Positions 38,282 through 53,184 of a stretch of DNA of 53,184 nt are shown here, piece by piece. The stretch comes from Candidatus Competibacteraceae bacterium (GTDB taxonomy: Bacteria; Pseudomonadota; Gammaproteobacteria; Competibacterales; JAHEDQ01), in contig JAHEDQ010000001.1 of the NCBI GenBank assembly GCA_024641125.1, positions 6,026-59,209 on the forward strand, in the 5' to 3' direction. The number at the start of each line of letters is the position of its first letter. Positions within the stretch are counted from its first letter, which is position 1. The position numbers and the translations under genes were made by a program. A model generated the notes under the pieces. That model did not search any database. It was not told the DNA's origin and was given only the letters and a program-made list of their open reading frames with translations.

Positions 38282-38959
38282 TCAACTTGCCCCGGCGGTG
38301 CTAACCGATGGCGTGGCGTCCAATCCTTGAACCAGGCTATGGAATTTTTCGCCCTGGATCAGGATATGATTTTTGACGATCGCCACCACGAGATCCTCCT
38401 CACCGGCACGGATCGCATCAACGATTTGCTGGTGCTCGCTGAGCGAGCCGACTATGCGGTTGCGGACATGGAGTTGCATGCGTCGATAGGGGGTCAATCG
38501 ATTGCGCAGGTTTTCGGTCTGTTCTGCCAGGAACCGGTTACCACAGGCGTCGTAGATCGCTTGATGGAAGGCTTCATTGCGATGATAGTAGGCATCGGCG
38601 TCCGCCTGCTCCGCCGCGTCGATGCAGGCCTGGTGTGCCTGCAACAGCCGAGCCGTGTGTTCGCCGTTGATGCGGCGGGCCGCCAGCCGTGCGCAGAGCG
38701 CTTCCAGCTCCGCCATCACCTCGAACATCTCAACCACCTGGGCGATGCCGATGGCTTTGACAAAGGCGCCACGGCGGGCCCGTAGTTCCACCAGCCCGGA
38801 GGCGGCAAGGCGATTGAGCGCCTCGCGGACCGGCGTACGAGACACGCCGAAACGCTCCGCCAGCGCCAACTCATCCAATCGGTTCCCCGGCAGGATGCGG
38901 CCAAGGACCACGTCTTCCTCCAGCGCCTCGCGCACCCGATCGGCCGCACGCTCATTCAT
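38282..38959 (-). CDS. matR: GntR/FCD-family regulator, MatR-like
   Basis: 225 residues from the ATG at 38959. The upstream extension to 39046 would run through the operator and is rejected. The N-terminal winged helix has the FadR-subfamily motif RFGVSRTPVREAL, and the C-terminal FCD domain has the metal-binding Asp/His pattern (YYHRNEAFHQAIY, SLSEHQQIVDAI). It faces the TRAP-matAB operon. The palindrome TTGTATACAA in the divergent promoter agrees with the inverted repeat reported for MatR of Rhizobium leguminosarum bv. trifolii. It probably represses the operon until malonate (or methylmalonate) binds. Confidence 0.88.
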   Translation of the reverse strand: MNERAADRVREALEEDVVLGRILPGNRLDELALAERFGVSRTPVREALNRLAASGLVELRARRGAFVKAIGIAQVVEMFEVMAELEALCARLAARRINGEHTARLLQAHQACIDAAEQADADAYYHRNEAFHQAIYDACGNRFLAEQTENLRNRLTPYRRMQLHVRNRIVGSLSEHQQIVDAIRAGEEDLVVAIVKNHILIQGEKFHSLVQGLDATPSVSTAGAS

Positions 38960-38993
38960 TTCCGCCCACACTGTCGTTTCCGCCAGATCGAAA

Positions 38994-39025
38994 TTGTATA
39001 CAAGAACGCATAATTGATATACGAA
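38994..39025. promoter_or_regulatory. two MatR-type operators in the malonate promoter
   Basis: TTGTATACAA (38994-39003) is a perfect 10-base palindrome. A weaker copy, TTGATATACGAA (39014-39025), is centred about two helical turns away. TTGACA (39030-39035) follows and could be the -35 element of the TRAP operon. No good -10 was found at 17 bases. The operators lie between the regulator and the TRAP genes. Confidence 0.75.
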
Positions 39026-39117
39026 AAGGTTGACAGCTAATACCACCCATGTTTTTCTGGCACGGCTAAAAATGCCCGATTTACGGGTTAAAGAAATCGT
39101 ATTGGAGGAGCAGTGAG

Positions 39118-40107
39118 ATGATGAAACAGGTTGCGCTGGCCGTGGCGGCTGGCATGTTCGTTTCGACGGCGTCCGCCGCTGATATTACCCTGAAAGCCTC
39201 ACACCAGTGGCCGGGGGGGAAGGGCGATGTGCGTGACGAAATGGTGCAAATACTGGCCAGCGAAGTCGAGCAGGCCAACGTGGGTCTGAAGATCCAGGTC
39301 TACCCGGGAAAATCGCTGTTCAAGCCAAAGGAACAGTGGGGTGCCATGACCAAGGGCCAGCTTGATATCTCGGCGTTTCCCCTGGACTATGCGTCCGGCC
39401 GCGTACCGCAGTTCTCCGCCACGCTGATGCCCGGCCTGGTCCGCAGCCACGATCGTGCGCTGCGTCTCAACGACTCACCCTTCATGGCGGACATCAAACA
39501 GTTGATTGAAGACAACGGCGTTGTGGTACTGGCCGATGCATGGCTGGCCGGCGCTTTTGCTTCGAAAAAGGAATGCATCACCGCACCCGAGACGATGGCG
39601 GGCCAGGTCACGCGCGCGGCCGGACCGGCCTTTGAACAAATGTTGGTGGGGGCCGGCGCCTCGATCGCTTCGATGCCGTCCTCGGAAATCTACACCGGGC
39701 TACAGACCGGCGTTCTGGATGCGGCCAACACCTCTTCCGGCTCTTTCGTTTCCTATCGCATCTACGAGCAGGTCAAATGTCTGACCGCACCGGGGGCTAA
39801 TGCCCTTTGGATGATGTACGAGCCCATCCTTATGTCCAAGAAATCCTGGGACAAGTTGGACCAGGCGCAAAAGGATGCGCTTATGGCCGCGGGACAGAAG
39901 GCGGAGGAATACTTTGTCGCCGAAGCCAAGAACCTGGACAAGGTGTTGACGGACAAATTCGCCGAAGCCGGGGTCGAGGTGGTGGAGATGAGCCCCGAGA
40001 ACTACGACGCCTGGCTGGCCATCGCCCAGGACACCTCCTACAAGGTTTTCTCCGAGAACGTGCCGGGCGGCGCGGAACTGATTGAGAAGGCGCTCGCCGT
40101 AGAGTAG
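39118..40107 (+). CDS. TRAP transporter solute-binding subunit (malonate, DctP-type)
   Basis: 329 residues; GGAGGA 8 bases before the ATG. A Sec signal peptide covers about residues 1-21 (ending STASAAD). The DctP fold is shown by LKASHQWPGG, GQLDISAFPL and the substrate-carboxylate Arg region QVTRAAGPAFEQML followed by GLQTGVLDAANTS. It is periplasmic and feeds the QM permease. The malonate assignment rests on matA/matB in the same unit. Confidence 0.92.
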   Translation: MMKQVALAVAAGMFVSTASAADITLKASHQWPGGKGDVRDEMVQILASEVEQANVGLKIQVYPGKSLFKPKEQWGAMTKGQLDISAFPLDYASGRVPQFSATLMPGLVRSHDRALRLNDSPFMADIKQLIEDNGVVVLADAWLAGAFASKKECITAPETMAGQVTRAAGPAFEQMLVGAGASIASMPSSEIYTGLQTGVLDAANTSSGSFVSYRIYEQVKCLTAPGANALWMMYEPILMSKKSWDKLDQAQKDALMAAGQKAEEYFVAEAKNLDKVLTDKFAEAGVEVVEMSPENYDAWLAIAQDTSYKVFSENVPGGAELIEKALAVE

Positions 40108-40219
40108 AGACCTGGCGTCCCCAGCCGGGCGGCCATGGCCCGGCCTGGGGGCGGTTCCCGCAACCAAAATGGCCCACCGCCCGCCTCGATCGGCGTGCTG
40201 TGGGCCCAGGGCCGGTGGC

Positions 40220-40759
40220 GTGCAAACCTTTATCAGATTCGTCAGCGGGCTGTCGCGATTCGCCGGGTTTCTCGCAACCCTGCTGCTGGGTCTGGCGGTG
40301 CTGGTGGTTTGCCAGATGATCGTGGTGCGCTACTTTTTAAACGCGTCCACGGTTTGGCAGACCGAATTTGTCATCTACAGCCTGGTGGCCGCGACCTTCA
40401 TCGGATCGCCCTACGTGCTGATCCGAAAAGGTCACGTGGGCGTCGATCTCATCCCCAACGCACTGAGCGGTCGAGGCAGGATTGCGCTCGATGTGGCGGC
40501 CGCAGTTCTGTCCCTGGTGTTTCTGTGCATTCTGACCTGGTCAGGCTGGCACTATTTTTATGAGGCCTGGCAGGGTCGCTGGACCACCGACACGGTGTGG
40601 GCCCTGCCCCTTTGGATTCCCCTGCTGCCGCTGCCCCTGGGCATGGGTTTGCTCTGTCTCCAATACATCGCCGAGATTCTGAGAATCGTCTCCGGTGAGG
40701 GCGAGGGACCCGCCCTGGGCGCCCATGGGCTTAAGGACATTGAAGGGATGGCCGACTGA
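40220..40759 (+). CDS. TRAP transporter small permease subunit (DctQ-type)
   Basis: 179 residues from a GTG at 40220; no family similarity is seen upstream of it. Four membrane helices are predicted, with the DctQ signature SPYVLIRKGHVGVDLIPN and the WRTDT-like WTTDTVWALPLW. It bridges the binding protein and the large subunit in the inner membrane. Its stop overlaps the next start by one base. Confidence 0.9.
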   Translation: MQTFIRFVSGLSRFAGFLATLLLGLAVLVVCQMIVVRYFLNASTVWQTEFVIYSLVAATFIGSPYVLIRKGHVGVDLIPNALSGRGRIALDVAAAVLSLVFLCILTWSGWHYFYEAWQGRWTTDTVWALPLWIPLLPLPLGMGLLCLQYIAEILRIVSGEGEGPALGAHGLKDIEGMAD

Positions 40760-42090
40760 TGACACCGTTGATGAGTGGGTTGATCGTCCTGATCGTGTTG
40801 CTCGTTTTACTGGCCACCGGGATGCCCATCGCGTTCGCCCTGGGTCTGGTGGCGGTGGGCGCTTTGGTGCTGACCGACGGTTGGAGCGTCATTGACATCG
40901 TCGGGGAGACCTTCTTCGCCGGTTTGGCCGAGTTTGGATTGGTATCGATCCCCATGTTTATTCTGATGGGTGCGGCGGTGGCATCCAGTCCGGCCGGAAA
41001 AGATCTCTACGAGGCGCTGGACCGCTGGCTCAACCGGGTTCCTGGCGGACTGATTCTTTCAAACATCGGAGCGTGTTCGGTATTCGCCGCTCTGTCCGGA
41101 TCCAGCCCCGCCACCTGTGCCGCCATCGGCAAAATGGGCATCCCCGAGATGCAACAGCGGGGATATCCCGACACCATTGCCGCGGGTTCGATCGCCGCTG
41201 GCGGCACGCTCGGCATTCTCATCCCGCCGTCGGTCACCATGATCGTCTACGGTATCGCCACCGAGACCTCCATCGGTCGCCTGTTCCTCGCCGGGCTGCT
41301 GCCGGGTCTGATGCTGACCGTCCTGTTCATGATCTGGGCGATCATCGACTGCCGCCGCCAGGGCTATTCCTTCGAGCAGGCAGCGCAGCGGTTTACGCTC
41401 CGCCAGAAGCTGGAGGCGCTGCCTCGGGTTTTACCCTTCCTGGCCATCATCGTGGCCATCCTGTATGTGCTTTACGGCGGAGTGGCGACACCGTCCGAGG
41501 CCGCCGGTGCCGGCGCCTTGTTCTGCATTCTTCTGGTGGTGGTGATCTACCAGCTGATTCCCAAGCGGCGCATCGATTTTGCGAGTCTTGGCAAAGTGTT
41601 CGGCGACTCCATTCGCGAGTCGATCATGATCATGCTGATCATCGCCGCCTCGGAGCTGTTTTCCTTCGCCCTATCCTCCATGTTCGTGACCCAATCCGTC
41701 GCCGAGTGGATCGCGGCCCTGGAAGTCAACCGCTGGGTCTTGATGGGGATCGTGAATCTGTTTCTGCTGGTGGCCGGCTTTTTCCTGCCGCCGGTGGCGG
41801 TGATCCTGATGACCGCGCCGATTCTGATACCCATCATTTTGCAGGCCGGCTTCGATCCCTACTGGTTTGCGGTCGTGCTCACCATCAATATGGAGATCGG
41901 GTTGATTACGCCGCCGGTGGGATTGAACCTGTACGTCATCAACGGCATCGCCCCGGATATCTCGTTGAAATCCATCCTGGTCGGATCGCTGCCATTTGTG
42001 CTGTGTATGGTGCTGGGCATCCTGCTGTTGTGCGTATTTCCCGGCATAGCCACCTGGTTGCCGGAGTACATGATGGGGGCGGCAATATGA
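40759..42090 (+). CDS. TRAP transporter large permease subunit (DctM-type)
   Basis: The protein has 443 residues with about 12 membrane helices. FVALSGSSPATCAAIGKMGIPEM-type motifs (AALSGSSPATCAAIG), GGTLGILIPPSVTMIVYG and the later MEIGLITPPVGLNLYV are DctM hallmarks. It forms the Na-coupled elevator channel. It overlaps matA in an ATGA. Confidence 0.95.
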   Translation: MTPLMSGLIVLIVLLVLLATGMPIAFALGLVAVGALVLTDGWSVIDIVGETFFAGLAEFGLVSIPMFILMGAAVASSPAGKDLYEALDRWLNRVPGGLILSNIGACSVFAALSGSSPATCAAIGKMGIPEMQQRGYPDTIAAGSIAAGGTLGILIPPSVTMIVYGIATETSIGRLFLAGLLPGLMLTVLFMIWAIIDCRRQGYSFEQAAQRFTLRQKLEALPRVLPFLAIIVAILYVLYGGVATPSEAAGAGALFCILLVVVIYQLIPKRRIDFASLGKVFGDSIRESIMIMLIIAASELFSFALSSMFVTQSVAEWIAALEVNRWVLMGIVNLFLLVAGFFLPPVAVILMTAPILIPIILQAGFDPYWFAVVLTINMEIGLITPPVGLNLYVINGIAPDISLKSILVGSLPFVLCMVLGILLLCVFPGIATWLPEYMMGAAI

Positions 42091-43433
42091 ACAGCGGCGG
42101 TCTGTTACAGGATATCCTGATCAACGTTGCGGAGCGTGGACGCAGTCTGCTCGGGCCGACATCCTCGAGCAAAGCTTCCGTGGAGTCGATTCTCGAGCAG
42201 TGCGATACGCTCCTGACCAGCCGGGGCGAGGCGTCGGGCGTGGCCTTGGCCCGCAGGCTGGTGGGGCAGTTGGATGCCCTCAGCGCGGATGAACTGCTGG
42301 TGTTTTTTCGCGCGCTCTCGGAGCGTTACTCGCCTGATCCCGAGGCGGTTGGCGCCGCCGCCAAGGCTTACGCAGAGGCCGCGACGCCGGATACCCTAGC
42401 GCGTCTGCTTTCAGTCTCCGAGCCACCCCGCCAGGAGTTGTTCCGGCGGCTGAATCTGGCGCCCGGCGCCACCGCCGCTCTGGTTGCTATGCGCCGTGAA
42501 CTCATAGGCCATCTTTCAGATGAGCCGGCCCTGCGGGTGGTAGACGCCGACCTGATCCATTTGCTTACCTCCTGGTTCAATCGTGGGTTTCTGGTCATGC
42601 GTCGTATTGACTGGCAGTCGCCAGCCCACATTCTGGAAAAACTGATCGAGTACGAGGCGGTGCATCAGATTCATGGCTGGGACGATCTGCGCCGGCGGCT
42701 GGCGCCGGCGGACCGTCGATGTTTCGCCTTTTTCCACCCGGCCTTACCCGACGACCCGCTGATATTCGTCGAAGTGGCGCTGACCGATTCGATACCGGAG
42801 AACATCGCCGGATTGCTGAGCGAGGGTCGCGACGTGGTCACCGGCAGTCGCCGCACGGTGGCGGTGTTCTATTCCATTTCCAATTGTCAGGCGGGCCTCA
42901 AGGGTATTTCTTTTGGCAATTTCCTGATCAAACAGGTGGTGGAGGACCTCAGGCAGGGGCTGCCGTCGCTGAAGTCCTTCGTAACCTTGTCGCCGGTCCC
43001 CGGTCTGCTCCGCTGGCTGAGCGCTACTGCGGGGGCAGAGACGCCGGTCGAGGCCGTGATCCAGGCGTTGAAACAGGCGGACTGGCACCGCGACCCGGGC
43101 ATCGCCGATGCACTCAAAAAACAGCTGACGCCTCTGGCGGCCCGCTATTTTCTGACCGAGAAACGGCCGGACGGGACCCCCCTGGATCCGGTCGCCCGCT
43201 TTCACCTGGGCAATGGGGCGTCGCTTCACCGGCTCAACTGGCTGGGCGACCTGTCGGCCAAAGGCATGCGCGAGTCCGCTGGGTTGATGGTGAATTACCT
43301 GTACGATCCGGCCTCAATCGAAGCCAATCACGAGGCCTACGCTGATGGTGGGAAGGTGGTCGCTTCCCGCGCAGTGCGGGCCCTGCTGCCGGCCCAGCGC
43401 ACCAAGAAAGCCAAGGTAAGCCCCGATGCCTAA
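42087..43433 (+). CDS. matA: malonyl-CoA decarboxylase
   Basis: 448 residues from the ATG at 42087 in the dctM stop; the same frame is open much further upstream, but that part overlaps dctM and is not real. The N-terminal helical domain is followed by the GNAT-like catalytic domain: FFHPALPDDPLIFVEVALT, YSISNCQAGLKGISFGN (catalytic Ser) and RFHLGNGASLHRLNWLGD (catalytic His). It converts malonyl-CoA to acetyl-CoA and CO2. It is followed by matB with an 8-base overlap. Confidence 0.95.
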   Translation: MNSGGLLQDILINVAERGRSLLGPTSSSKASVESILEQCDTLLTSRGEASGVALARRLVGQLDALSADELLVFFRALSERYSPDPEAVGAAAKAYAEAATPDTLARLLSVSEPPRQELFRRLNLAPGATAALVAMRRELIGHLSDEPALRVVDADLIHLLTSWFNRGFLVMRRIDWQSPAHILEKLIEYEAVHQIHGWDDLRRRLAPADRRCFAFFHPALPDDPLIFVEVALTDSIPENIAGLLSEGRDVVTGSRRTVAVFYSISNCQAGLKGISFGNFLIKQVVEDLRQGLPSLKSFVTLSPVPGLLRWLSATAGAETPVEAVIQALKQADWHRDPGIADALKKQLTPLAARYFLTEKRPDGTPLDPVARFHLGNGASLHRLNWLGDLSAKGMRESAGLMVNYLYDPASIEANHEAYADGGKVVASRAVRALLPAQRTKKAKVSPDA

Positions 43434-44946
43434 CGTTCTGTTCGATGCTTTACTCGGCGAAATCGCGAACCCAGGCAAGGTTTTTCTGGATGTCCCGGGC
43501 GGAGGCAGTGTCACCTTCGATCAATTGGAGACCATGACGGCACGTGTCGCCGGTGCTCTGCAGCGCCTGGGTGTGGCTCCCGGCGACCGGGTGGCGGCCC
43601 AGGTGCCCAAGTCGGTGGATGCAGTCGCCCTGTATCTGGGCGTGGTCCGCGCAGGCGCGGTTTTTCTGCCCCTGAACACGGGCTACACCAGCGCCGAGGT
43701 TGCCTACTTTCTGACCGATGCGGCGCCGGCCGTGTTTGTGTGCACACCGGCTTCCGAAAGCGCGCTGGCCCCGATTGCCGCCACCGCCAAGGCGCTGCTC
43801 CGAACCCTGGATGCGGACGGCGCTGGAAGTTGGCCGGCGGAACTTGCCCTGAGCGCCGATGGCTTTGTCGGCGTGGACCGGGGTCCGGACGATCTGGCCG
43901 CCATCCTGTACACCTCCGGCACCACCGGCCGCTCCAAGGGCGCTATGCTGACCCACGGGAACCTGCTGTCCAACGCCCGGGTTCTGGTGACCTACTGGCA
44001 GTTCACCGATCGCGACGTGTTGCTTCATGCATTGCCAATATTCCACACCCACGGCTTGTTCGTTGCCCTCAATGTGGCGCTGCTTGCGGGCGCCAGCGTG
44101 ATCTTCATGGAACGCTTCCAGGTTGATGACATCCTGCGCCAGATGCCGCGTGCCACCAGCATGATGGGTGTGCCCACTTTTTATAGCCGGTTGCTGGCTC
44201 AGCCGGGGTTTACTGCCGAGCTGGCCGCCAACATGCGCTTGTTCGTTTCCGGTTCGGCTCCCATGTCGGCCGAGGTGCACAAAGCATTTATGGAGCGCAC
44301 CGGAAAATCGATCCTCGAGCGCTACGGCATGACCGAGACCAACATGAACACCTCCAACCCCTATCTGGGGGATCGACGCCCGGGCACGGTGGGTTTCCCC
44401 CTGCCCGGCGTGTCCTTGCGGATCTGCGATCCCGCCAGCGGAGAGGTGCTGCAGACCGAGCAGGTCGGCGTGATCGAGGTACGCGGGCCCAACGTGTTCA
44501 AAGGCTACTGGCAGATGCCGGAAAAGACGGCAGCGGAGTTTCGCGACGACGGGTACTTTATCACCGGGGATTTGGGACGTATCGACCCCGATGGCTACGT
44601 CCACATTGTGGGACGGGACAAGGACCTGATCATCACCGGCGGTTTCAACGTCTATCCGGCCGAAGTCGAGGCCGCCATCGACGCATTGCCCGGCGTGGCT
44701 GAATCTGCCGTCGTGGGCGTGCCCCATGCCGACTTCGGTGAAGGGGTGGTGGCAGTGGTGGCGCCGCGACCCGGTGCGGACCTGAACGAGACCCGGATTC
44801 GCGATGCGCTACGTGGTCACATAGCCGCTTACAAGCTGCCGAAACGGGTCCTGTTTGTCAGTGAATTGCCGCGCAACACCATGGGCAAGATCCAGAAAAA
44901 TCTGCTGCGCGAGCAGTATGGTAGCGCCTGCGAAGGCTCGGCCTGA
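43426..44946 (+). CDS. matB: malonyl-CoA synthetase
   Basis: The protein has 506 residues, the MatB length. It is an AMP-forming acyl-CoA synthetase: P-loop LYTSGTTGRSKGAMLTHGN, GYFITGDLGRID, and C-terminal Lys in NTMGKIQKN. The RYGMTETNMNTSNPY stretch is typical of malonate-specific members. It makes malonyl-CoA from malonate, CoA and ATP. With the TRAP transporter and MatA it completes uptake and conversion to acetyl-CoA. Confidence 0.95.
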   Translation: MPNVLFDALLGEIANPGKVFLDVPGGGSVTFDQLETMTARVAGALQRLGVAPGDRVAAQVPKSVDAVALYLGVVRAGAVFLPLNTGYTSAEVAYFLTDAAPAVFVCTPASESALAPIAATAKALLRTLDADGAGSWPAELALSADGFVGVDRGPDDLAAILYTSGTTGRSKGAMLTHGNLLSNARVLVTYWQFTDRDVLLHALPIFHTHGLFVALNVALLAGASVIFMERFQVDDILRQMPRATSMMGVPTFYSRLLAQPGFTAELAANMRLFVSGSAPMSAEVHKAFMERTGKSILERYGMTETNMNTSNPYLGDRRPGTVGFPLPGVSLRICDPASGEVLQTEQVGVIEVRGPNVFKGYWQMPEKTAAEFRDDGYFITGDLGRIDPDGYVHIVGRDKDLIITGGFNVYPAEVEAAIDALPGVAESAVVGVPHADFGEGVVAVVAPRPGADLNETRIRDALRGHIAAYKLPKRVLFVSELPRNTMGKIQKNLLREQYGSACEGSA

Positions 44947-45356: not shown

Positions 45357-46427
45357 ATGAGCAAGGCCTATCACACCCTGATTCTAGGGGCGTCTTATGG
45401 TTCTTTGTTGGGCACAAAGCTTTTGCTGGCGGGCCACCCGGTCACCCTGGTGTGTACCGCCTCGACCGCCGCACTGATCAACAGCGAGGGTACGCGGGTA
45501 CGGTTGCCTGTGCGCGGCAGAGACGCCCTGGTGGAAGTCGATTCCAGGACGTTGCCGGCCCAGCTCACCGCCGCCACACCGGATCAGGTAAACCCTGCGG
45601 ATTACGATCTCATCGTCATGGGTATGCAGGAACCCCAGTACGGATCGCCGGGGGTCCGGGAGCTGATGGGACGCATCGCCGCGGCGCGGGTGCCCTGTAT
45701 GGCGATTATGAACATGCCGCCACTGCCGTTTCTCAAGCGTATTCCCGGTCTATCGACCGATGAGCTTATTCAGTGCTACGCCGAGCCCGGTGTTTGGGAG
45801 GCAATGGATCCCGCCTTGATCACCCTGGCAAGCCCCGATCCTCAGGCGTTTCGTCCGCCCGAGGAAGGCAAGAACGTGCTCCAGGTCAGTCTGCCCACCA
45901 ATTTCAAGGTGGCACGCTTCGATTCGGAGCAGCACACCGCAATGCTCAGGCAGATGGAGTCGGATATCGACGGCATCCGCTTCGATGTCGATGGTGAGTC
46001 GGTGGAACTGCCGGTCAAACTCAAGGTGCACGAGTCTGTTTTCGTCCCGCTGGCGAAATGGAGCATGCTGATGACCGGCAATTATCGCTGCGTCAAACGT
46101 GATGAAATGATCCCGATCCGGGATGCGGTCCATTCCGACATCGACGCTTCACGGGCGATCTACAGTTGGGTCGGAGATCTGTGCGGCAAACTGGGGGCGG
46201 CCCCGGCAGATCAGGTTCCGTTCGAGAAGTACGCCAACGCGGCCGAAGGTCTGGCCAAGCCTTCTTCCGCAGCCCGGGCACTGTTCTCCGGTGCGACGAA
46301 CATCGAACGCGTGGACTGCCTGGTCAAGCAGATTTCCCGGCAACTGGGTATGCAGCAGAGTTCAATTGACGAAACCGTTGGTTTGGTGGACTACCATTTG
46401 GCAAGGAATCGTGCCGACGCCGGATAA
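45357..46427 (+). CDS. ketopantoate-reductase-like (ApbA/PanE N-terminal) protein
   Basis: 356 residues from the ATG at 45357, with GGAG upstream. The N-terminus LILGASYGSLLGTKLLLAG is a Rossmann strand-loop-helix like that of 2-dehydropantoate 2-reductase, but the glycine loop is GASYGS, not GxGxxG. It then continues VTLVCTASTAALI, and DYDLIVMGMQEPQYGSP corresponds to the second cofactor-loop region. The C-terminal half (LPVKLKVHESVFVPLAKWSMLMTGNYRC) includes a Lys-containing helix as in the family but is otherwise divergent. It is probably an NAD(P)-dependent oxidoreductase of unknown substrate, followed by an HD-oxygenase gene. Confidence 0.7.
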   Translation: MSKAYHTLILGASYGSLLGTKLLLAGHPVTLVCTASTAALINSEGTRVRLPVRGRDALVEVDSRTLPAQLTAATPDQVNPADYDLIVMGMQEPQYGSPGVRELMGRIAAARVPCMAIMNMPPLPFLKRIPGLSTDELIQCYAEPGVWEAMDPALITLASPDPQAFRPPEEGKNVLQVSLPTNFKVARFDSEQHTAMLRQMESDIDGIRFDVDGESVELPVKLKVHESVFVPLAKWSMLMTGNYRCVKRDEMIPIRDAVHSDIDASRAIYSWVGDLCGKLGAAPADQVPFEKYANAAEGLAKPSSAARALFSGATNIERVDCLVKQISRQLGMQQSSIDETVGLVDYHLARNRADAG

Positions 46428-46612
46428 CGGTGTGGTGGGCCAGCGCTTTCCGGCGCGGCGCCGAACGATGACACCAAAGGATCCCGGCTACCGGATACGA
46501 ATCGGCAGGTACAGTGGCGTGTGGAGACACAGCCTGTTGTGGATGCCCACAGCGCCCGGAATCCAGTTGGTCGAGCTCAATGCAACGCGCCCGGAGCGCT
46601 TGGGAGGGGATC

Positions 46613-47194
46613 ATGAGTCAGGTGGCGTTTACCCGCATGACGGACGGCAGCGCGGAAGACTATGCGCTCTTGGCGCGCTTGGAACAGGCCTACTGCGAAC
46701 GCCTGCCCGATCGTCTGCTGGCCGCCCTGCGACAGCTTGACGACTCACTGGCGGGCTATCAGGTCAGCCGGCTGGAACACTGTCTGCAGGCTGCCACCCG
46801 GGCGCAGCGGGCGGGGGAGCCGGAGGAAGTGGTGATGGCGGCGCTGTTGCACGACATCGGCGACAGTCTGGCGCCGTACTCCCACAGCGAGATGGCCGCT
46901 GCGGTCCTGCGACCCTTTGTGTCGGATCGGGTCTACTGGATCGTCAAGCATCACGGCGTGTTCCAGATGTACTATTACGCCCATCACCTGGGGCGCGATC
47001 GGAACGCACGTGATCGCTTTGCTGGTCACCCCTGGTACGATGACGCGGTCAGGTTTTGCGAGCAATACGATCAGAACTGTTTCGACCCGAACTACGACTG
47101 GATGCCGCTGACGCAGTTCGAGCCCATGTTGCGTCGTTTGTTTGCCAAGCCCCGGTTACTGGACGCGGATAGCGCTCCTGGTGTCGACCCATGA
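46613..47194 (+). CDS. HD-domain protein of the PhnZ/TmpB/MIOX-like diiron oxygenase group
   Basis: 193 residues from the ATG at 46613, with GGGAGGGGATC upstream. The ligand set expected for mixed-valent diiron HD oxygenases is present in order: His56, His80-Asp81 (ALLHDIGD), His91 (YSHSEM), His113/114 (KHHGVFQ) and Asp153 (EQYDQNCFDP). The 24-residue spacing of the first two matches PhnZ from memory. These enzymes cleave C-C or C-P bonds of hydroxylated substrates with O2; TmpB makes glycine betaine from a trimethylammonio-phosphonate. The substrate here is not known. It may also be a phosphohydrolase-type HD protein. Confidence 0.75.
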   Translation: MSQVAFTRMTDGSAEDYALLARLEQAYCERLPDRLLAALRQLDDSLAGYQVSRLEHCLQAATRAQRAGEPEEVVMAALLHDIGDSLAPYSHSEMAAAVLRPFVSDRVYWIVKHHGVFQMYYYAHHLGRDRNARDRFAGHPWYDDAVRFCEQYDQNCFDPNYDWMPLTQFEPMLRRLFAKPRLLDADSAPGVDP

Positions 47195-47279
47195 GTCAGT
47201 GGCCGTTCAGCAAGGCGAGAAGCACTCAGACGTCAGGCGGGCCGTGCGCAGGAGGCACTGTTTGGCGCCGCGCCGGCAC

Positions 47280-49709
47280 TCAGGCCCTCAGGCGGCTGTT
47301 GTCCGGGTCGTAGATCGGTTCCGAGACAACCGTCGCCGCTCTGCGATGGCCGAAGATGTCCACTTCCAGCGCGGTGCCCGGTTCGGTGAGATCGATCCGC
47401 ACATAGGCCAGGGCGATGCTCTTGCCGATGGCGTAGCCATAGCCGCCCGACGTCACCAGGCCGACGGTGTCCAGGCCCTGGAACACGGTGGCGCAGACCG
47501 GGGCGTCGGTCCCTTCGGCCTCTACCAGCAGGGGCACAAGCCGTTGCCCGAGTCCGGCCTGCTGTTGCGCTCTCAGGGCCTCCCGCCCGGGGAAGGGACC
47601 CTTGTCCAGATCCACGAATCGGTTCAGGGACGATTCCCAAGCTGAGTACTCGTCTACCAGATCCACCTTCCAACTGCGATAACACTTTTCCAGGCGCAGC
47701 GAATCCAGGGCGTACATGCCGAAGTCGGCGACACCCAGGTCTGCGCCCGCCGTCATCAGTCGATCGTACACGGGCTGCATGCCGGCCATGGGCAGGTGGA
47801 GTTCCCAGCCCAGCTCGCCGACGTAGTTGACCCGCAGCGCTCGCACCGCCATGAAACCGATTTCGATGGGTCGGGCACATAACCAGGGAAACGCGGCGTT
47901 GCTGAGATCGGCATCGGTGACCCGCTCCAGCAAGGTGCGGCTCTCGGGACCGGCGATCACCAGGGTGCCGTAGAGCCCGGTGACATTGTCCAGACGCACC
48001 GATCCATCGGCCGGCAAATGCTGGCTCAGCAACTGCTTGTCGTGCCATTCGGCACCGCCTGCGCAACAGAGATAGAAGCGGTCTTCCGCCCAGCGGGTCA
48101 CGGTGAATTCGCTTTGCACCCCACCCCGTTCCGTGCAGACGTAGCACAGACCGATCCGGCCGATTCGCGGCAGCCGTCCGGCAACGAGTCGGTCAAGGTA
48201 TTGGGCTGCGCCGGTACCGGAAACCTCGAATTTCGCGAAACCGGGCAGGTCCAGGATCGCCACCCGTTCCCGCACCGCTTTGCATTCCCTGCCCACGGCC
48301 TCGAACCAGTTGGTCCGGTGAAAGCTAGCCTGCTCGACCGCGTCCATGTCCTCGGGGGGAAACCATGCGGCCCGTTCCCAGCCTGCCCGGGCGCAGAACA
48401 TGGCCCGCTTGGCCTTGAGCGTGCCGTACAGGGGTGAGGTCTTGGCGGGCCGACCTGCTGGCCGCTCCTCGAAGGGAAAATTGATAGCGTACTCGCGGCC
48501 GTAGAGTTCGATGGCCTTTTGCCGGGTGTACTCCAGATTGGCGTAGTCGGTGTAACGGCGCGGGTCCACCACCCAGGTGTCCCACTCGGCCTGACCATGA
48601 ACAATCATCTCTGCCAGGCATTTGCCGGCGCCGCCCCCCTGGGCGATGCCAAAACTGAATGCGGCGCAAAGATAAAAATTGTCCAGGCCGTGAACCGGAC
48701 CGATCAGGGGCAGACCATCCGGTGTATAGGGAATGGGCCCGTTGATGACACGCTGTACCCCGCCCTCGGCCAGGATGGGGACCCGCTTCATGGCATCCTC
48801 GATGTAAAACTCCAGCCGCTCCAGGTCGGGTTCGAACAGTTCCATGGCGAACTGGTCGGGCAGGGAGTTCACCCAGCAGGCCTTACAGTCTCGCTCGTAG
48901 GGGCCCAGAATAAGACCCTTGCGCTCCTGGCGCAGATAGTAGGAGATGTCGGGGTCCCGCAGCAGCGGCAAATGCCCGTCCCAGTCCTCCAGCGCCGGAA
49001 TCGCTTCGGTAACCAGGTATTGGTGCTCCATGGACACCACGGGGTGTCGCATCCCGACCAGACCCGATATTTCGTTGACCCGGTAGCCACCTGCATTGAC
49101 CACGATTTCACAGCGGATGGCGCCGCCGGCTGTTTGTACCTCCCACTCACCCCCGGGGACGCGGCAGATGCCCTCGACCTTGCTGTTCCGGTAGATCCGG
49201 GCGCCGGCCGCCCGCGCGCCCCGGGCGAAGGCCTGGGTCACCTGACTGGGATCGATATCGCCGTCGCTGGGATCCCACAGGCCGCCCAGCAGGTCATGGG
49301 TTTCCATGAACGGGAAGCGGTTCTTCAGATCAGACGTGCTGAGCATTTCGAACGCGATCCCCTGGGCCCGGGCCATGCCGCAAACATGGTGGAATTCCTC
49401 CATCCGTTCCCGGCTGTGGGCCAGCCGCACGCTTCCGGTCTGGTGATAGGTGATGTTGCTGTCGGTCAGCGCGCCCAGGCGGCCATACAACTCGTTGCCA
49501 TAGCGCTGTAGTTTGATGATGTTCCAGGAACCCGAAAAACTTGGGCAGTTACCGGCAGCGTGCCAGGTGGACCCGGCGGTCAATTCATCCCGCTCCACCA
49601 GCACCACGTCGTGCCAACCCAACTGGGTGAGATGCCAGAGTGTGCTGCAGCCCGCGATGCCGCCGCCGATCACCACCACCCGGGCTTGCCCATTCAGTTC
49701 GTTTGCCAT
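47280..49709 (-). CDS. dimethylglycine/sarcosine-dehydrogenase-family flavoprotein
   Basis: About 809 residues from the ATG at 49709; a GTG at 49721 would overlap the previous gene. Domains in order are DAO (VVVIGGGIAGCSTLWHL), the flavin-attachment-type motif LTAGSTWHAAG, FAO_M (residues about 370-425), GCV_T (YLDRLVAGRLPRIGRIGL onward) and GCV_T_C (ending SEPIYDPDNSRLR). This is the architecture of DMGDH: oxidative N-demethylation with transfer of the methylene group to tetrahydrofolate or release of formaldehyde. It lies directly downstream of the MttB-family gene. Dimethylglycine is the likeliest substrate, but a related methylamine is possible. Confidence 0.88.
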   Translation of the reverse strand: MANELNGQARVVVIGGGIAGCSTLWHLTQLGWHDVVLVERDELTAGSTWHAAGNCPSFSGSWNIIKLQRYGNELYGRLGALTDSNITYHQTGSVRLAHSRERMEEFHHVCGMARAQGIAFEMLSTSDLKNRFPFMETHDLLGGLWDPSDGDIDPSQVTQAFARGARAAGARIYRNSKVEGICRVPGGEWEVQTAGGAIRCEIVVNAGGYRVNEISGLVGMRHPVVSMEHQYLVTEAIPALEDWDGHLPLLRDPDISYYLRQERKGLILGPYERDCKACWVNSLPDQFAMELFEPDLERLEFYIEDAMKRVPILAEGGVQRVINGPIPYTPDGLPLIGPVHGLDNFYLCAAFSFGIAQGGGAGKCLAEMIVHGQAEWDTWVVDPRRYTDYANLEYTRQKAIELYGREYAINFPFEERPAGRPAKTSPLYGTLKAKRAMFCARAGWERAAWFPPEDMDAVEQASFHRTNWFEAVGRECKAVRERVAILDLPGFAKFEVSGTGAAQYLDRLVAGRLPRIGRIGLCYVCTERGGVQSEFTVTRWAEDRFYLCCAGGAEWHDKQLLSQHLPADGSVRLDNVTGLYGTLVIAGPESRTLLERVTDADLSNAAFPWLCARPIEIGFMAVRALRVNYVGELGWELHLPMAGMQPVYDRLMTAGADLGVADFGMYALDSLRLEKCYRSWKVDLVDEYSAWESSLNRFVDLDKGPFPGREALRAQQQAGLGQRLVPLLVEAEGTDAPVCATVFQGLDTVGLVTSGGYGYAIGKSIALAYVRIDLTEPGTALEVDIFGHRRAATVVSEPIYDPDNSRLRA

Positions 49710-49714
49710 GGCCG

Positions 49715-51289
49715 CTACCAACGTTTTGAAGCAGGGTTCATGATTTCCGTCGGCAGCCTGATGGGAAATGCTGCACGCAGCTTCTGATTCAGCGCCGGGT
49801 CAATGTACTCGGGGTAGTGGCTGGACAGGATAAGTTGCACCCGCTCCCGGGCTTTCTCGATCATGTCACGGGAGCCCTTCTCCACCCATTCCTTGGGGCT
49901 GAGACGGTCCGCGACTTCCGGGTAGACATAGTCTTTCTGCATTAATTCCATGGTCTGGCCGTGACCCAGATAGTGGCTGGGTCCGCCGATGCAGACATCG
50001 CGCATGGCGTCGATGGACAGGCTTTGCTCGGTGATCTCGATCCCGCGGATGGTTCTCAGCACCGCACCCAGCATATCGTTGTCTATGACAAAACTCTCTA
50101 GGCAACAGCCCAGCAGGCTGGCCAGCATACCGGCGGATTCGTACACGATGTTGGCGCCGGCCTGACCGGCCAACACCGTGGTGTAGGCTTTCTCCAGGCC
50201 GGATTGGGCGTCGGGCAGTTTCGAGTCCGCCATGCCCGCCGCAACGCCGCCGGGCAGATCGTAGAAGCCGGACATCTGGGCGCAGGCCGCCATCAACACG
50301 GCCTGTTCGCCGCTGCCGCCGCTCATGGCGCCGGTGCGCAGGTCGGAGATAAACGGCCATGTCCCGAAAATGGCCGGCGACCCCGGTACGATGGCGTTGA
50401 CGTATACCAGGCCGGCCAACACCTCCGCCACCTCCTGAACCAGCGCGCCGGCCAGCGACGCAGGGCTGGTGGCGCCGGCCTGACCCGCCGCCAGCAACAG
50501 GACCGGCATGCCAGCCTCCACCGCCACTTCGAGACAGCGGCAGGCGTCTTCGGCAAAGCGCAGCGGTGGCACCACAAAGCAGTTGGACATGCTGACGAAG
50601 GGCCGCTCACGCCACTTTTTCTCGCCGCCGGCGATCATGTGCAGCATGGCCACCGATTCCCGTACATGGTCCGGTTCCACCCAGCTTGTGCCCACATGTT
50701 TGCGGGTTCCGGCCAGCGCTGCGTAGCAGGTGTTCAGATCCATTTCCCGCGGATCGACCAGGTCCCGGGCCACCACCGAACGTTGAAACATATGGACATT
50801 GTCCAAAGTGTCCACCAGCCGGCTGATGTCGTAGAGATCGGCCAGAGTCGAGTCGCGGTAGGCGCGGGTCTGGGCATCCACCATGTGCACCGCGGCGCCG
50901 GCAGTGGAGAAGTGCACCCGGGTACCGGACAGGTCCAGATCATGTTGCGGATCCCGGGCGTGCAGCAGGAAGTTGCGCGCCGCGGACGCCACCGTGTCTT
51001 CCACGAGACTGCGTGGAAAAAGCAGGCGGCCCTCTTCCGTCAACCGCCCGCCCAGCGCCTCGATGCGTCGCACACAGCTGGGAATGGCGTTTGCAATGCC
51101 GATGTTTTCCAGCACCTCCAGTGCCGCCGAGTGGATTCGGCGCATCTCTGGGTCGGTAAGGGGCTTGTAAGCGCCCCCCTCCAAACCAGGCCTGACCGGC
51201 CTCAGTTCAGGTGGCAGAGGCGCTCGGCGTGCCGCCTGGCGGTCGGTTCGGGCGTGCCCTCTGCGGCCACGGGTTCGGGTTTCGGACAT
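49715..51289 (-). CDS. MttB-superfamily methyltransferase, non-pyrrolysine type
   Basis: 524 residues without an in-frame amber codon, so it is of the non-Pyl group that includes glycine-betaine methyltransferase MtgB. The TIM barrel features FGTWPFISDLRTGAMSGGSGE, FYDLPGGVAAGMADSKLPD and GGPSHYLGHGQTMELM are characteristic. The N-terminal 40 residues are Arg-rich. GGGAGA precedes the ATG. It lies 156 bases downstream of the GbdR-like regulator and just before the DMGDH-like gene. Known members move a methyl group to a corrinoid protein; no corrinoid protein or activator is in this window. Glycine betaine to dimethylglycine is the likeliest reaction (inference). Confidence 0.87.
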   Translation of the reverse strand: MSETRTRGRRGHARTDRQAARRAPLPPELRPVRPGLEGGAYKPLTDPEMRRIHSAALEVLENIGIANAIPSCVRRIEALGGRLTEEGRLLFPRSLVEDTVASAARNFLLHARDPQHDLDLSGTRVHFSTAGAAVHMVDAQTRAYRDSTLADLYDISRLVDTLDNVHMFQRSVVARDLVDPREMDLNTCYAALAGTRKHVGTSWVEPDHVRESVAMLHMIAGGEKKWRERPFVSMSNCFVVPPLRFAEDACRCLEVAVEAGMPVLLLAAGQAGATSPASLAGALVQEVAEVLAGLVYVNAIVPGSPAIFGTWPFISDLRTGAMSGGSGEQAVLMAACAQMSGFYDLPGGVAAGMADSKLPDAQSGLEKAYTTVLAGQAGANIVYESAGMLASLLGCCLESFVIDNDMLGAVLRTIRGIEITEQSLSIDAMRDVCIGGPSHYLGHGQTMELMQKDYVYPEVADRLSPKEWVEKGSRDMIEKARERVQLILSSHYPEYIDPALNQKLRAAFPIRLPTEIMNPASKRW

Positions 51290-51445
51290 GCGGCGGGTCT
51301 CCCTTGGGCCGACGAAGCTTGATTCGGGCTTGGCTCATCAACCATCTGAATCCGATGATAGTCCAAGTGGGACCGAGACAGATCCACCAAGTGTGGGCAA
51401 AGCGACGGCTTGTTGAATCGCGGCGACGAAGGGCGTTCGCCCGAT

Positions 51446-52477
51446 TTAAAGCGCGGCTGCAACCGCTTGGTCCACGGGCGAGTGCCGCGTCTGTCTTGGA
51501 GGGTGGCCAAAACGCCCGCGATAGCAGCGGCTGAAGTGCCCGGGAGATACAAAACCGCTGGCCAGGGCTACCTCGGTGATGGACAGCGAGGTCTGCTCCA
51601 CCAATTGCCGTCCGTGGTTGAGGCGTACGGCCATGTAGTAGCGCGAGGGTGTGGTTTTCAAATAGGCCTGGAACAGGCGCTCCAGTTGCCGTTTGGTGAT
51701 GCCGATGGCGTCGGAAATCTCCGTCACGGTCAGGGGCTGTTCGATGTTGGCCTCCATCAGCGCAATGGCATCCAGCACCCTGGGCTGGCGGATGCCGGTG
51801 CGGGATTCCAGGCTCAAGCGCTGCGGCACACTGGCGTCCCGTAAGCTTCCGTGCATAAACATGTCGGACACCGCCAGGGCCAGATCCCGGCCCTGTTGAC
51901 GTTCGATCAGATGCAGCATCAAATCCAGCGCAGCGGTGCCCCCTGCACAGGTCAGTCGGGGGCCATCGATCTCGAACAAGCGGTTTGAAATAACCAGCTC
52001 TGGAAAGGACTCGACCATGCCGGCGCGGTTTTCCCAGTGCACCGTGCAACGCCTTCGGGCCAGCAATTCCGCCTGGGCCAGAACATACGCGCCGGTGTCC
52101 AGCCCACCCAGAATCGATCCGCGTCGATCCAGTTCCCGTAGCCAACCCAGGACCTTGGGGTCGCGGTGGTGATGGGGATCATGGTGTCCGAGTACCAATA
52201 GCAGCGGGGTGGTCTTGACCTGGTCGAGGGCGGCGTCGGCCTGCTGCTGCATGCCGTTCGCGGCCCGGACCGGCCCGCCGTCGCGGGTGATGACCTGCCA
52301 GCTATAGAGATCGCGACCGCTCAGCCGGTTGGCTACCCGCAGGGGTTCCACCGCCGAGACGAAGGCCAGCATCCCGAAACTGGGCTCGAGGTAAAAACTG
52401 ACGAGCCGCTCCGCCGGCCCGGATGGGACGCCGAACTGGGTCGGCTTCGGGGGCGCCGATGTGTTTTCAGTTGTCAT
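51446..52477 (-). CDS. GlxA-type AraC-family regulator, GbdR-like
   Basis: 343 residues. The N-terminal DJ-1/PfpI-like sensor domain (VSFYLEPSFGMLAFVSAVEPLRVANRL) is followed by an AraC double helix-turn-helix (DAIGITKRQLERLF and LASGFVSPGHFSRCYRGRFG). This resembles GbdR, the glycine-betaine/dimethylglycine-responsive activator of Pseudomonas, more than a generic AraC protein. It lies between the ThiS-like gene and MttB, and probably controls the group. It shares architecture, but little length-wise identity by eye, with the CdhR-like regulator at 30.5 kb. Confidence 0.9.
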   Translation of the reverse strand: MTTENTSAPPKPTQFGVPSGPAERLVSFYLEPSFGMLAFVSAVEPLRVANRLSGRDLYSWQVITRDGGPVRAANGMQQQADAALDQVKTTPLLLVLGHHDPHHHRDPKVLGWLRELDRRGSILGGLDTGAYVLAQAELLARRRCTVHWENRAGMVESFPELVISNRLFEIDGPRLTCAGGTAALDLMLHLIERQQGRDLALAVSDMFMHGSLRDASVPQRLSLESRTGIRQPRVLDAIALMEANIEQPLTVTEISDAIGITKRQLERLFQAYLKTTPSRYYMAVRLNHGRQLVEQTSLSITEVALASGFVSPGHFSRCYRGRFGHPPRQTRHSPVDQAVAAAL

Positions 52478-52497
52478 GCGCCTTGGCGTTGGATAGC

Positions 52498-52749
52498 TCA
52501 GCCACCGCGCAGGGCAGGCAGGATGGACAGTTCGTCACCGGGCCCCAGGGGTTGAGAGGCGAGGGCGGATGGCGGAACCACTTTGCCGTTGACCGCGACC
52601 AGATAAGGCTTGTCTGTGGGAATGCCGAGCTGGGTCATCACCGTGTGCGGGGTGGCGGGTGCCGCCACCTCCAGATCGGCCCGATTGCGGCTGGAGCCCT
52701 TGGGCAGATGCTCACCCAGGAGGCCGCCGGTGCGGACTTGGATGTTCAT
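52498..52749 (-). CDS. ThiS/MoaD-like ubiquitin-fold protein
   Basis: 83 residues from the ATG at 52749, which overlaps the upstream stop in an ATGA. The beta-grasp fold is shown by MNIQVRTGGLL, PYLVAVNGKVVPP and GDELSILPALRGG. The C-terminal Gly-Gly is what is activated (adenylated, thiocarboxylated) in ThiS and MoaD. Tight coupling to a flavoprotein rather than to thiamine or molybdopterin genes is unusual. In other bacteria such pairs accompany aldehyde ferredoxin oxidoreductase genes, as far as I recall; that gene would lie beyond the right edge. Confidence 0.85.
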   Translation of the reverse strand: MNIQVRTGGLLGEHLPKGSSRNRADLEVAAPATPHTVMTQLGIPTDKPYLVAVNGKVVPPSALASQPLGPGDELSILPALRGG

Positions 52750-53184
52750 GCCGCGGCCTCTGCGGATGTATTGCATTCGAGATAAGCGTGGACGATCTGG
52801 TGTGGATCGCGCAAGAGTTCTTTTTTCCACTGGCCCAGGTTGACCCGCGTCTGAATCAGACCGCGCAAAACCCCCACCTGCTGGGTCAGACCCAGGCCGA
52901 TGGCGCCCACCAGAAAATCGCCGTCAAACTCCAGCCGGAGATATTTGAACTCCTCCCCGTTTAGGGCGCTCGCGCTGTCGCCTCCGGGCACGCCCTGCCA
53001 TTGACCGAACGAGCTGGAAATCAATCCCAGGGTGTTGAGCACATTGATTGCCAGGCTGCCGCTGTAGACGGTATCGACGCCGGCCATGTTGAGCGCGGCC
53101 ACCTGACCGTGATCGCCGGCGGTGGGCTGAATCGCATGCACTTCCCGCTGCCCGCCATTGAACACCGGACCCTGGGCAACGTCC
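52746..53184 (-). CDS. NAD(P)/FAD-dependent pyridine-nucleotide oxidoreductase, C-terminal part
   Basis: The N-terminal part lies outside the window; 145 residues are visible, beginning in-frame DVAQGPVFNGGQREVHAIQPTA. The pattern DVAQGP...QPTA...GQVAALNMAG is the second FAD-binding site and helix of class I flavoprotein disulfide/NADH-oxidase-like reductases (NirB/rubredoxin-reductase type). The following NVLNTLGLISSSFG and the LVGAIGLG segment belong to the C-terminal dimerisation domain. The stop overlaps the ThiS-like start (ATGA), so the two are translationally coupled. The electron partner is unknown. Confidence 0.8.
   Translation of the reverse strand, partial: DVAQGPVFNGGQREVHAIQPTAGDHGQVAALNMAGVDTVYSGSLAINVLNTLGLISSSFGQWQGVPGGDSASALNGEEFKYLRLEFDGDFLVGAIGLGLTQQVGVLRGLIQTRVNLGQWKKELLRDPHQIVHAYLECNTSAEAAA

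Follow-up and report, generated by a model that had tools for sequence, protein, structure and literature searches.

A GbdR-MttB-DMGDH-like gene unit of a Competibacteraceae genome as a probable satellite module of the aerobic MtgC/MtgD corrinoid system

Methylated amines make up a large share of marine dissolved organic nitrogen. The bacterium Ruegeria pomeroyi demethylates glycine betaine aerobically by a cobalamin-dependent set of proteins; on this substrate MtgC, DUF1638, MtgD and RamA were found, two PF06253 proteins were induced, and mtgC and mtgD were reported to be essential for demethylation (Mausz et al. 2025, PMC12478193). Here we compare with this system a locus at positions 45357-53184 of a 53,184-nucleotide stretch from the genome of a marine-type Candidatus Competibacteraceae bacterium (the window, meaning the whole stretch analysed, whose end is the end of contig C196 of genome G000). 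The core of the locus is an operon-like unit of genes for a GbdR-like regulator, an MttB-superfamily methyltransferase and a DMGDH-like protein. MttB loci, neighbours and folds were read computationally from genome sequences, and the reactions given below are proposals. In our view the locus is likely to serve as a substrate-specific satellite of the aerobic MtgC/MtgD corrinoid system already known. Most of the chemistry is thus familiar, and the novelty lies in the substrate and the extra enzymes.

As stated in the initial annotation, the window holds no corrinoid gene, for which it had suggested that either the corrinoid parts lie elsewhere or the methyl acceptor differs. The parts were indeed found elsewhere in the same genome. 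Contig C245 encodes, in this order, a stand-alone corrinoid protein (MtgC, with PF02607 and PF02310), DUF1638, a pterin-binding methyltransferase (MtgD, PF00809) and a RACo-type activase (PF14574), a set that matches the one of R. pomeroyi; contig C233 additionally holds a full-length MetH candidate, whose 1274-aa frame matches Pterin_bind and B12-binding_2. Of 54 genomes with a window-type MttB or a related HD-DMGDH locus, 49 had an orthologue of mtgC (E below 1e-100, 71-85% identity). Among 369 sampled genomes of the class, 15 with and 354 without window-type MttB, mtgC occurred in 14/15 MttB-bearing and 6/354 MttB-less genomes (Fisher p about 7e-20, uncorrected for kinship, so that independence is overstated for these related genomes). 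Physical clustering was seen as well: locus L076 carries a window-type MttB fragment followed by a canonical MttB-family gene, mtgC (79% identical), DUF1638 and mtgD (75%), the gene order is MTHFR-like, RACo, DMGDH-like, window-type MttB in L055 and MTHFR-like, RACo, window-type MttB in L030, and RACo precedes window-type MttB in SAR324-type genomes. Since this MttB subfamily co-occurs with mtgC and clusters with mtgC/mtgD or RACo, a different methyl acceptor is unnecessary. The window MttB probably uses the MtgC/MtgD hub, and the corrinoid link appears well supported by genomics.

The MttB gene of the window (49715-51289, minus strand) scores 390 bits over its full length against PF06253, for which the family cut-off is 25, and the nearest solved structures are MtgB (9yce, 2qne) and MttB (7xcl). 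The protein is of the type without pyrrolysine; no in-frame amber or other stop codon was found in window mttB, and Met353 is aligned to the pyrrolysine position. Five MttB-family genes occur in the genome, the window copy included, and the window protein is about 26% identical to the other four, among them the genome's own MtgB-like copies. In a tree of 77 sequences the window clade was split at 100/99 from Desulfitobacterium hafniense MtgB and these four proteins, and Methanosarcina MttB grouped with the window clade on a very long branch. We compared residues at positions that are at least 95% constant in the window clade, where Tyr95 and His346 of MtgB, which are retained in the MtgB-like copies on C192 and C180, are replaced by Gly131 and Glu384. 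The changed positions neighbour the Gly110-Thr111 turn of MttB, at which, according to the paper on the MttB-MttC structure, corrinoid and substrate are contacted. We infer that these positions may have a role in betaine binding. With its separate clade and its changed MtgB-conserved positions the window protein is, as judged from sequence, no MtgB. A gene of the MtgB clade is found on C192, adjoining a DMGDH paralogue and genes for an MtgE-like homocysteine methyltransferase, a MetF-like protein (an assignment read from sequence) and a GbdR-like regulator, and the canonical glycine betaine set of this genome probably sits there. Given this separate set and the loss of two MtgB-conserved positions, glycine betaine, to which the initial annotation had pointed, is doubtful as the substrate; a betaine other than glycine betaine is the probable one.

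All seven open reading frames listed initially are present, each in the family named, and they form two convergent groups with the stops of the HD and DMGDH-like genes 85 bp apart. The DMGDH-like gene (47280-49721, minus strand) overlaps or abuts the 3' end of mttB. Its product contains the Pfam domains DAO, FAO_M, GCV_T and GCV_T_C in that order, matches mammalian DMGDH (4p9s) over its full length with 640 bits, and belongs to a lineage separate from the genome's own C192 copy, with which it shares 45% identity. On the other side of mttB lies the gene of the GbdR-like AraC-family regulator (51446-52477, minus strand), which reaches 362 bits on NF052371, under the NCBIfam equivalog cut-off of 480. 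A gap of just 20 bp separates it from the ThiS-like gene, and within the window the genes for aldehyde oxidoreductase (AOR), GbdR and MttB all point the same way. From their spacing, the minus-strand genes look like a single transcription unit.

Conservation of the MttB neighbourhood far exceeds chance. Within 72 surveyed MttB loci of the window clade, 15 have an adjacent DMGDH-like gene on the same strand and 9 a GbdR-like gene at a distance of at most 5 kb. The MttB-DMGDH-GbdR neighbourhood is kept in several lineages, which supports the earlier proposal that the locus serves the demethylation of methylated amines; within the clade, the window falls in the branch that has this arrangement. 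Several observations weigh against a satellite module of this composition. Most members of the wider clade are found without a DMGDH-like neighbour; MmgE/PrpD is adjacent in 27/72 loci, mostly of Rhodobacteraceae, and an FMN oxidoreductase in 6/72. Pairing with DMGDH is thus no general feature of the clade, whose members may differ in substrate. The DMGDH-like proteins that do adjoin this MttB fall into at least two lineages, and neither contains the C192 copy. Moreover, five of the 54 genomes gave no mtgC orthologue, possibly through incompleteness, and the association of AOR with MttB was seen in just one other locus (L068). With such varied neighbourhoods and DMGDH-like lineages, the MttB clade as a whole probably covers several substrates.

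The loci of the clade differ in further respects. In L037-L063, L069, L074 and L075 (Rhodobacteraceae and others) the MttB clade gene lies directly behind an MmgE/PrpD gene, and loci of this type also hold aldehyde, alcohol or GMC dehydrogenase, isocitrate-dehydrogenase-like and fatty-acid-hydroxylase-like genes. The FMN oxidoreductase that adjoins MttB in L064, L067 and L070-L073 is a 650-aa protein of the Oxidored_FMN plus Pyr_redox type. Two identical GbdR-MttB-DMGDH units (L032, L033) were found at opposite ends and in opposite orientations of the 87-kb contig CATOSZ010000018.1, with IstA/IstB-like genes, judged by eye, beside one of the copies. A natural MttB-DMGDH fusion of 1332 aa in L032/L033 was considered and rejected, because its N-terminal part is a shadow frame and not MttB.

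The HD-domain oxygenase-like protein (about 46613-47194, plus strand; PF01966) was modelled from 17 homologues with a predicted local distance difference test score (pLDDT) of 93. The ten best Foldseek matches of this model were all PhnZ or TmpB with E below 1e-5, followed by MIOX, and the HD metal ligands H56, H80, D81, H91, H114 and D153/D158 are invariant in the family. PhnZ and TmpB possess a YxxE substrate-gating loop (PMC8177086), which we did not find in the window HD protein (L49-x-x-Y52); across its family the E is replaced by Y or F. The natural reading, tentatively, would be an oxygenase for a trimethylammonium-type compound. Window-type MttB occurs near an HD gene in L040, L045, L115, L116 and L117, the last of these being a one-strand array of MttB, DMGDH, DMGDH2 and HD, and the two genes co-occur, HD being present in 10/15 MttB-bearing compared to 18/354 MttB-less genomes of the class (p about 3e-9). 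HD homologues, likewise lacking the YxxE loop, lie beside a TmpA/GBBH-like dioxygenase in six other loci (L121-L124, L128, L131), and many HD homologues have other neighbours. One of the loci with a TmpA/GBBH-like dioxygenase adjoins a betaine-binding OpuAC protein, and the TmpA-like protein of L123 scores just over the NCBIfam cut-off (403 vs 400). In L114 (5023-6741) and L119 (7132-8783) the HD gene is paired with a dioxygenase of PhyH type that is not TmpA-like.

At the end of the window, the ThiS/MoaD-like (AorD-type) gene (52498-52776, minus strand; PF02597) borders on a flavoprotein gene (52746-53183, minus strand) that is cut by the contig end, leaving the C-terminal 145 aa of an AorC-like FAD subunit with a PadH-like match of 66 bits. 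Positions 1-668 of contig C85 (L133) overlap window positions 52517-53184 over 668 bp at 97.9% identity, which suggests either that strains are mixed or that a near-duplicate lies where the contig breaks off. C85 goes on to encode an entire FAD subunit (417 aa), an AFOR large subunit (623 aa) that is the genome's sole AFOR match, and an Fe-S subunit (194 aa); in this stretch AorB and AorA come after AorC. The ThiS-like gene and the flavoprotein thus belong to an operon for a tungsten-type aldehyde oxidoreductase, which extends onto C85. A comparable gene arrangement, AorABC with a MoaD-like gene, is known from the tungsten aldehyde oxidoreductase of Aromatoleum aromaticum (PMC6365974). In L068 the same kind of AFOR, Fe-S and ThiS genes lies beside MttB-DMGDH, with the subunits confirmed by Pfam.

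The KPR-like oxidoreductase gene (45357-46427, plus strand) gave a weak match to TIGR00745 and no Pfam hit of its own; its homologues in L149 and L151 exceed the PF02558 ApbA cut-off, and its predicted structure (pLDDT 45) was too poor for use. It is beside MttB in the window only and absent from the MttB loci of relatives. A KPR-like gene was rare, being present in 3/369 genomes of the class, all three of which have a window-type MttB (p about 5e-5), and in 9/50 further MttB-bearing genomes. We rejected KPR as part of a conserved unit on account of its absence from MttB loci and its occurrence in 3/369 genomes; a looser link to MttB is possible because all three of these genomes and 9/50 of the further ones share both genes. 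The initial proposal of one seven-gene system was therefore too broad: the GbdR-MttB-DMGDH core stands and recurs in relatives, as does the HD gene, while the ThiS-like gene and flavoprotein are AOR parts and KPR is neither linked nor syntenic elsewhere. KPR-like genes neighbour formate dehydrogenase in L113 and L147, succinate-CoA ligase-type genes in L144 and L113, and serine hydroxymethyltransferase plus glyoxylate aminotransferase in L151. Our guess is that the protein might be a 2-oxoacid reductase in one-carbon or glyoxylate metabolism. Elsewhere in the window, a malonate-utilisation operon at 38282-44946 comprises genes for a GntR/FCD regulator, a DctP-DctQ-DctM TRAP transporter, malonyl-CoA decarboxylase and malonyl-CoA synthase.

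We propose that a quaternary amine, probably not glycine betaine but another betaine, would lose one methyl group to the MttB-family protein. The latter would hand this group over to the Co(I) of MtgC, the corrinoid protein from C245, whose use would be shared; from there MtgD would move it to tetrahydrofolate, and RACo would re-reduce inactive cobalamin. The DMGDH-like protein would then oxidise the remaining N-methyls, its GcvT domain catching them as 5,10-methylene-tetrahydrofolate, and the GbdR-like regulator would control the unit. The probable task of the upstream tungsten-type AOR is the oxidation of an aldehyde formed on the way, and that of the HD oxygenase the oxidative breaking of a C-C or C-X bond in compounds of the same class. 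More tentatively, MttB, the DMGDH-like protein, the HD oxygenase and AOR might together constitute an undescribed aerobic pathway for a marine quaternary amine, in which the first methyl would be removed by corrinoid methyltransferases from a clade with a new specificity and the carbon skeleton would be cleaved by a non-phosphonate HD oxygenase; we hold this to be possible, with the odds somewhat against it. Our search of the open literature, with subscription papers outside its range, found no report of the MttB-DMGDH-HD combination.

Other explanations of the locus can be given. The window MttB and DMGDH-like protein might simply duplicate the C192 set; a GbdR-type regulator would then control a further, redundant set of genes for glycine betaine demethylation. 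The regulator and DMGDH-like partner in the window, the same three kinds of genes on C192 and the induction of two PF06253 proteins by R. pomeroyi on glycine betaine (PMC12478193) would fit this, but the window MttB stands in a clade apart from the genome's own MtgB-like copies at about 26% identity, has Gly131 and Glu384 where MtgB and two of these copies keep Tyr95 and His346, and lies among HD and AOR neighbours that glycine betaine does not need; we regard a redundant set as unlikely. It is highly improbable that the acceptor of the MttB methyl group is no corrinoid but, for instance, the folate domain of the DMGDH-like partner, reached by direct transfer. The very strong co-occurrence with mtgC and the clustering with mtgC/mtgD or RACo in relatives speak for a corrinoid in spite of the tight coupling of mttB to the gene of a GcvT-domain protein and of the missing corrinoid gene beside it, and what looks like an MttB-DMGDH fusion in L032 arises from a shadow frame.

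The demethylation operon, the AOR operon and the HD/KPR pair might also be unrelated units that abut by chance, as could be expected from a KPR without conserved MttB synteny, from an AOR that adjoins MttB only in L068 and the window, and from the many HD homologues with other neighbours. We give this a small chance, since five further loci, from several lineages, have HD close to this MttB, the HD-MttB co-occurrence (10/15 vs 18/354) has a p of about 3e-9, and AOR, GbdR and MttB genes run in the same direction with just 20 bp between the ThiS-like gene and gbdR. A satellite module of the MtgC/MtgD system remains the reading that we favour. The MttB clade occurs in alpha- and gammaproteobacteria and in SAR324-type genomes, and Ruegeria, Shimia and Pacificispira offer cultivated relatives that hold it. 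So wide a clade suggests that one MtgC/MtgD hub may serve a number of exchangeable MttB proteins, each specific for its substrate, in the way known from gut acetogens, and that further methylated compounds may be tied to cobalamin supply. The outcome is a short gene list for finding the substrate.

Compared with known systems, the genome shares with the MtgBCD system of R. pomeroyi a PF06253 methyltransferase, a stand-alone MtgC, MtgD, DUF1638 and RamA/RACo, and likewise DMGDH-type enzymes for later steps. Different from that system, the window MttB is in a clade apart from MtgB, and its gene forms a tight pair with a DMGDH-like gene of its own and neighbours those of an HD oxygenase and an aldehyde oxidoreductase. 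D. hafniense MtgB (2qne, 9yce) and the window protein are both members of the MttB superfamily without pyrrolysine; however, the window clade has Gly and Glu for Tyr95 and His346 and is of an aerobic-type lineage. With dimethylglycine dehydrogenase (4p9s, 5l46) the DMGDH-like protein shares the full-length domain architecture at 640 bits. The window HD protein has the fold and the HD metal-ligand pattern in common with PhnZ and TmpB (4mlm, 6npa; PMC8177086), but is without the YxxE loop, is about 22% identical in the structure alignment, and scores far under the NCBIfam cut-offs. Finally, as in AorABC of A. aromaticum (PMC6365974), Fe-S, AFOR large and FAD subunits together with a MoaD/ThiS-like gene form one operon, whereas here this operon lies beside a methyltransferase operon and both tungsten and activity are predictions.

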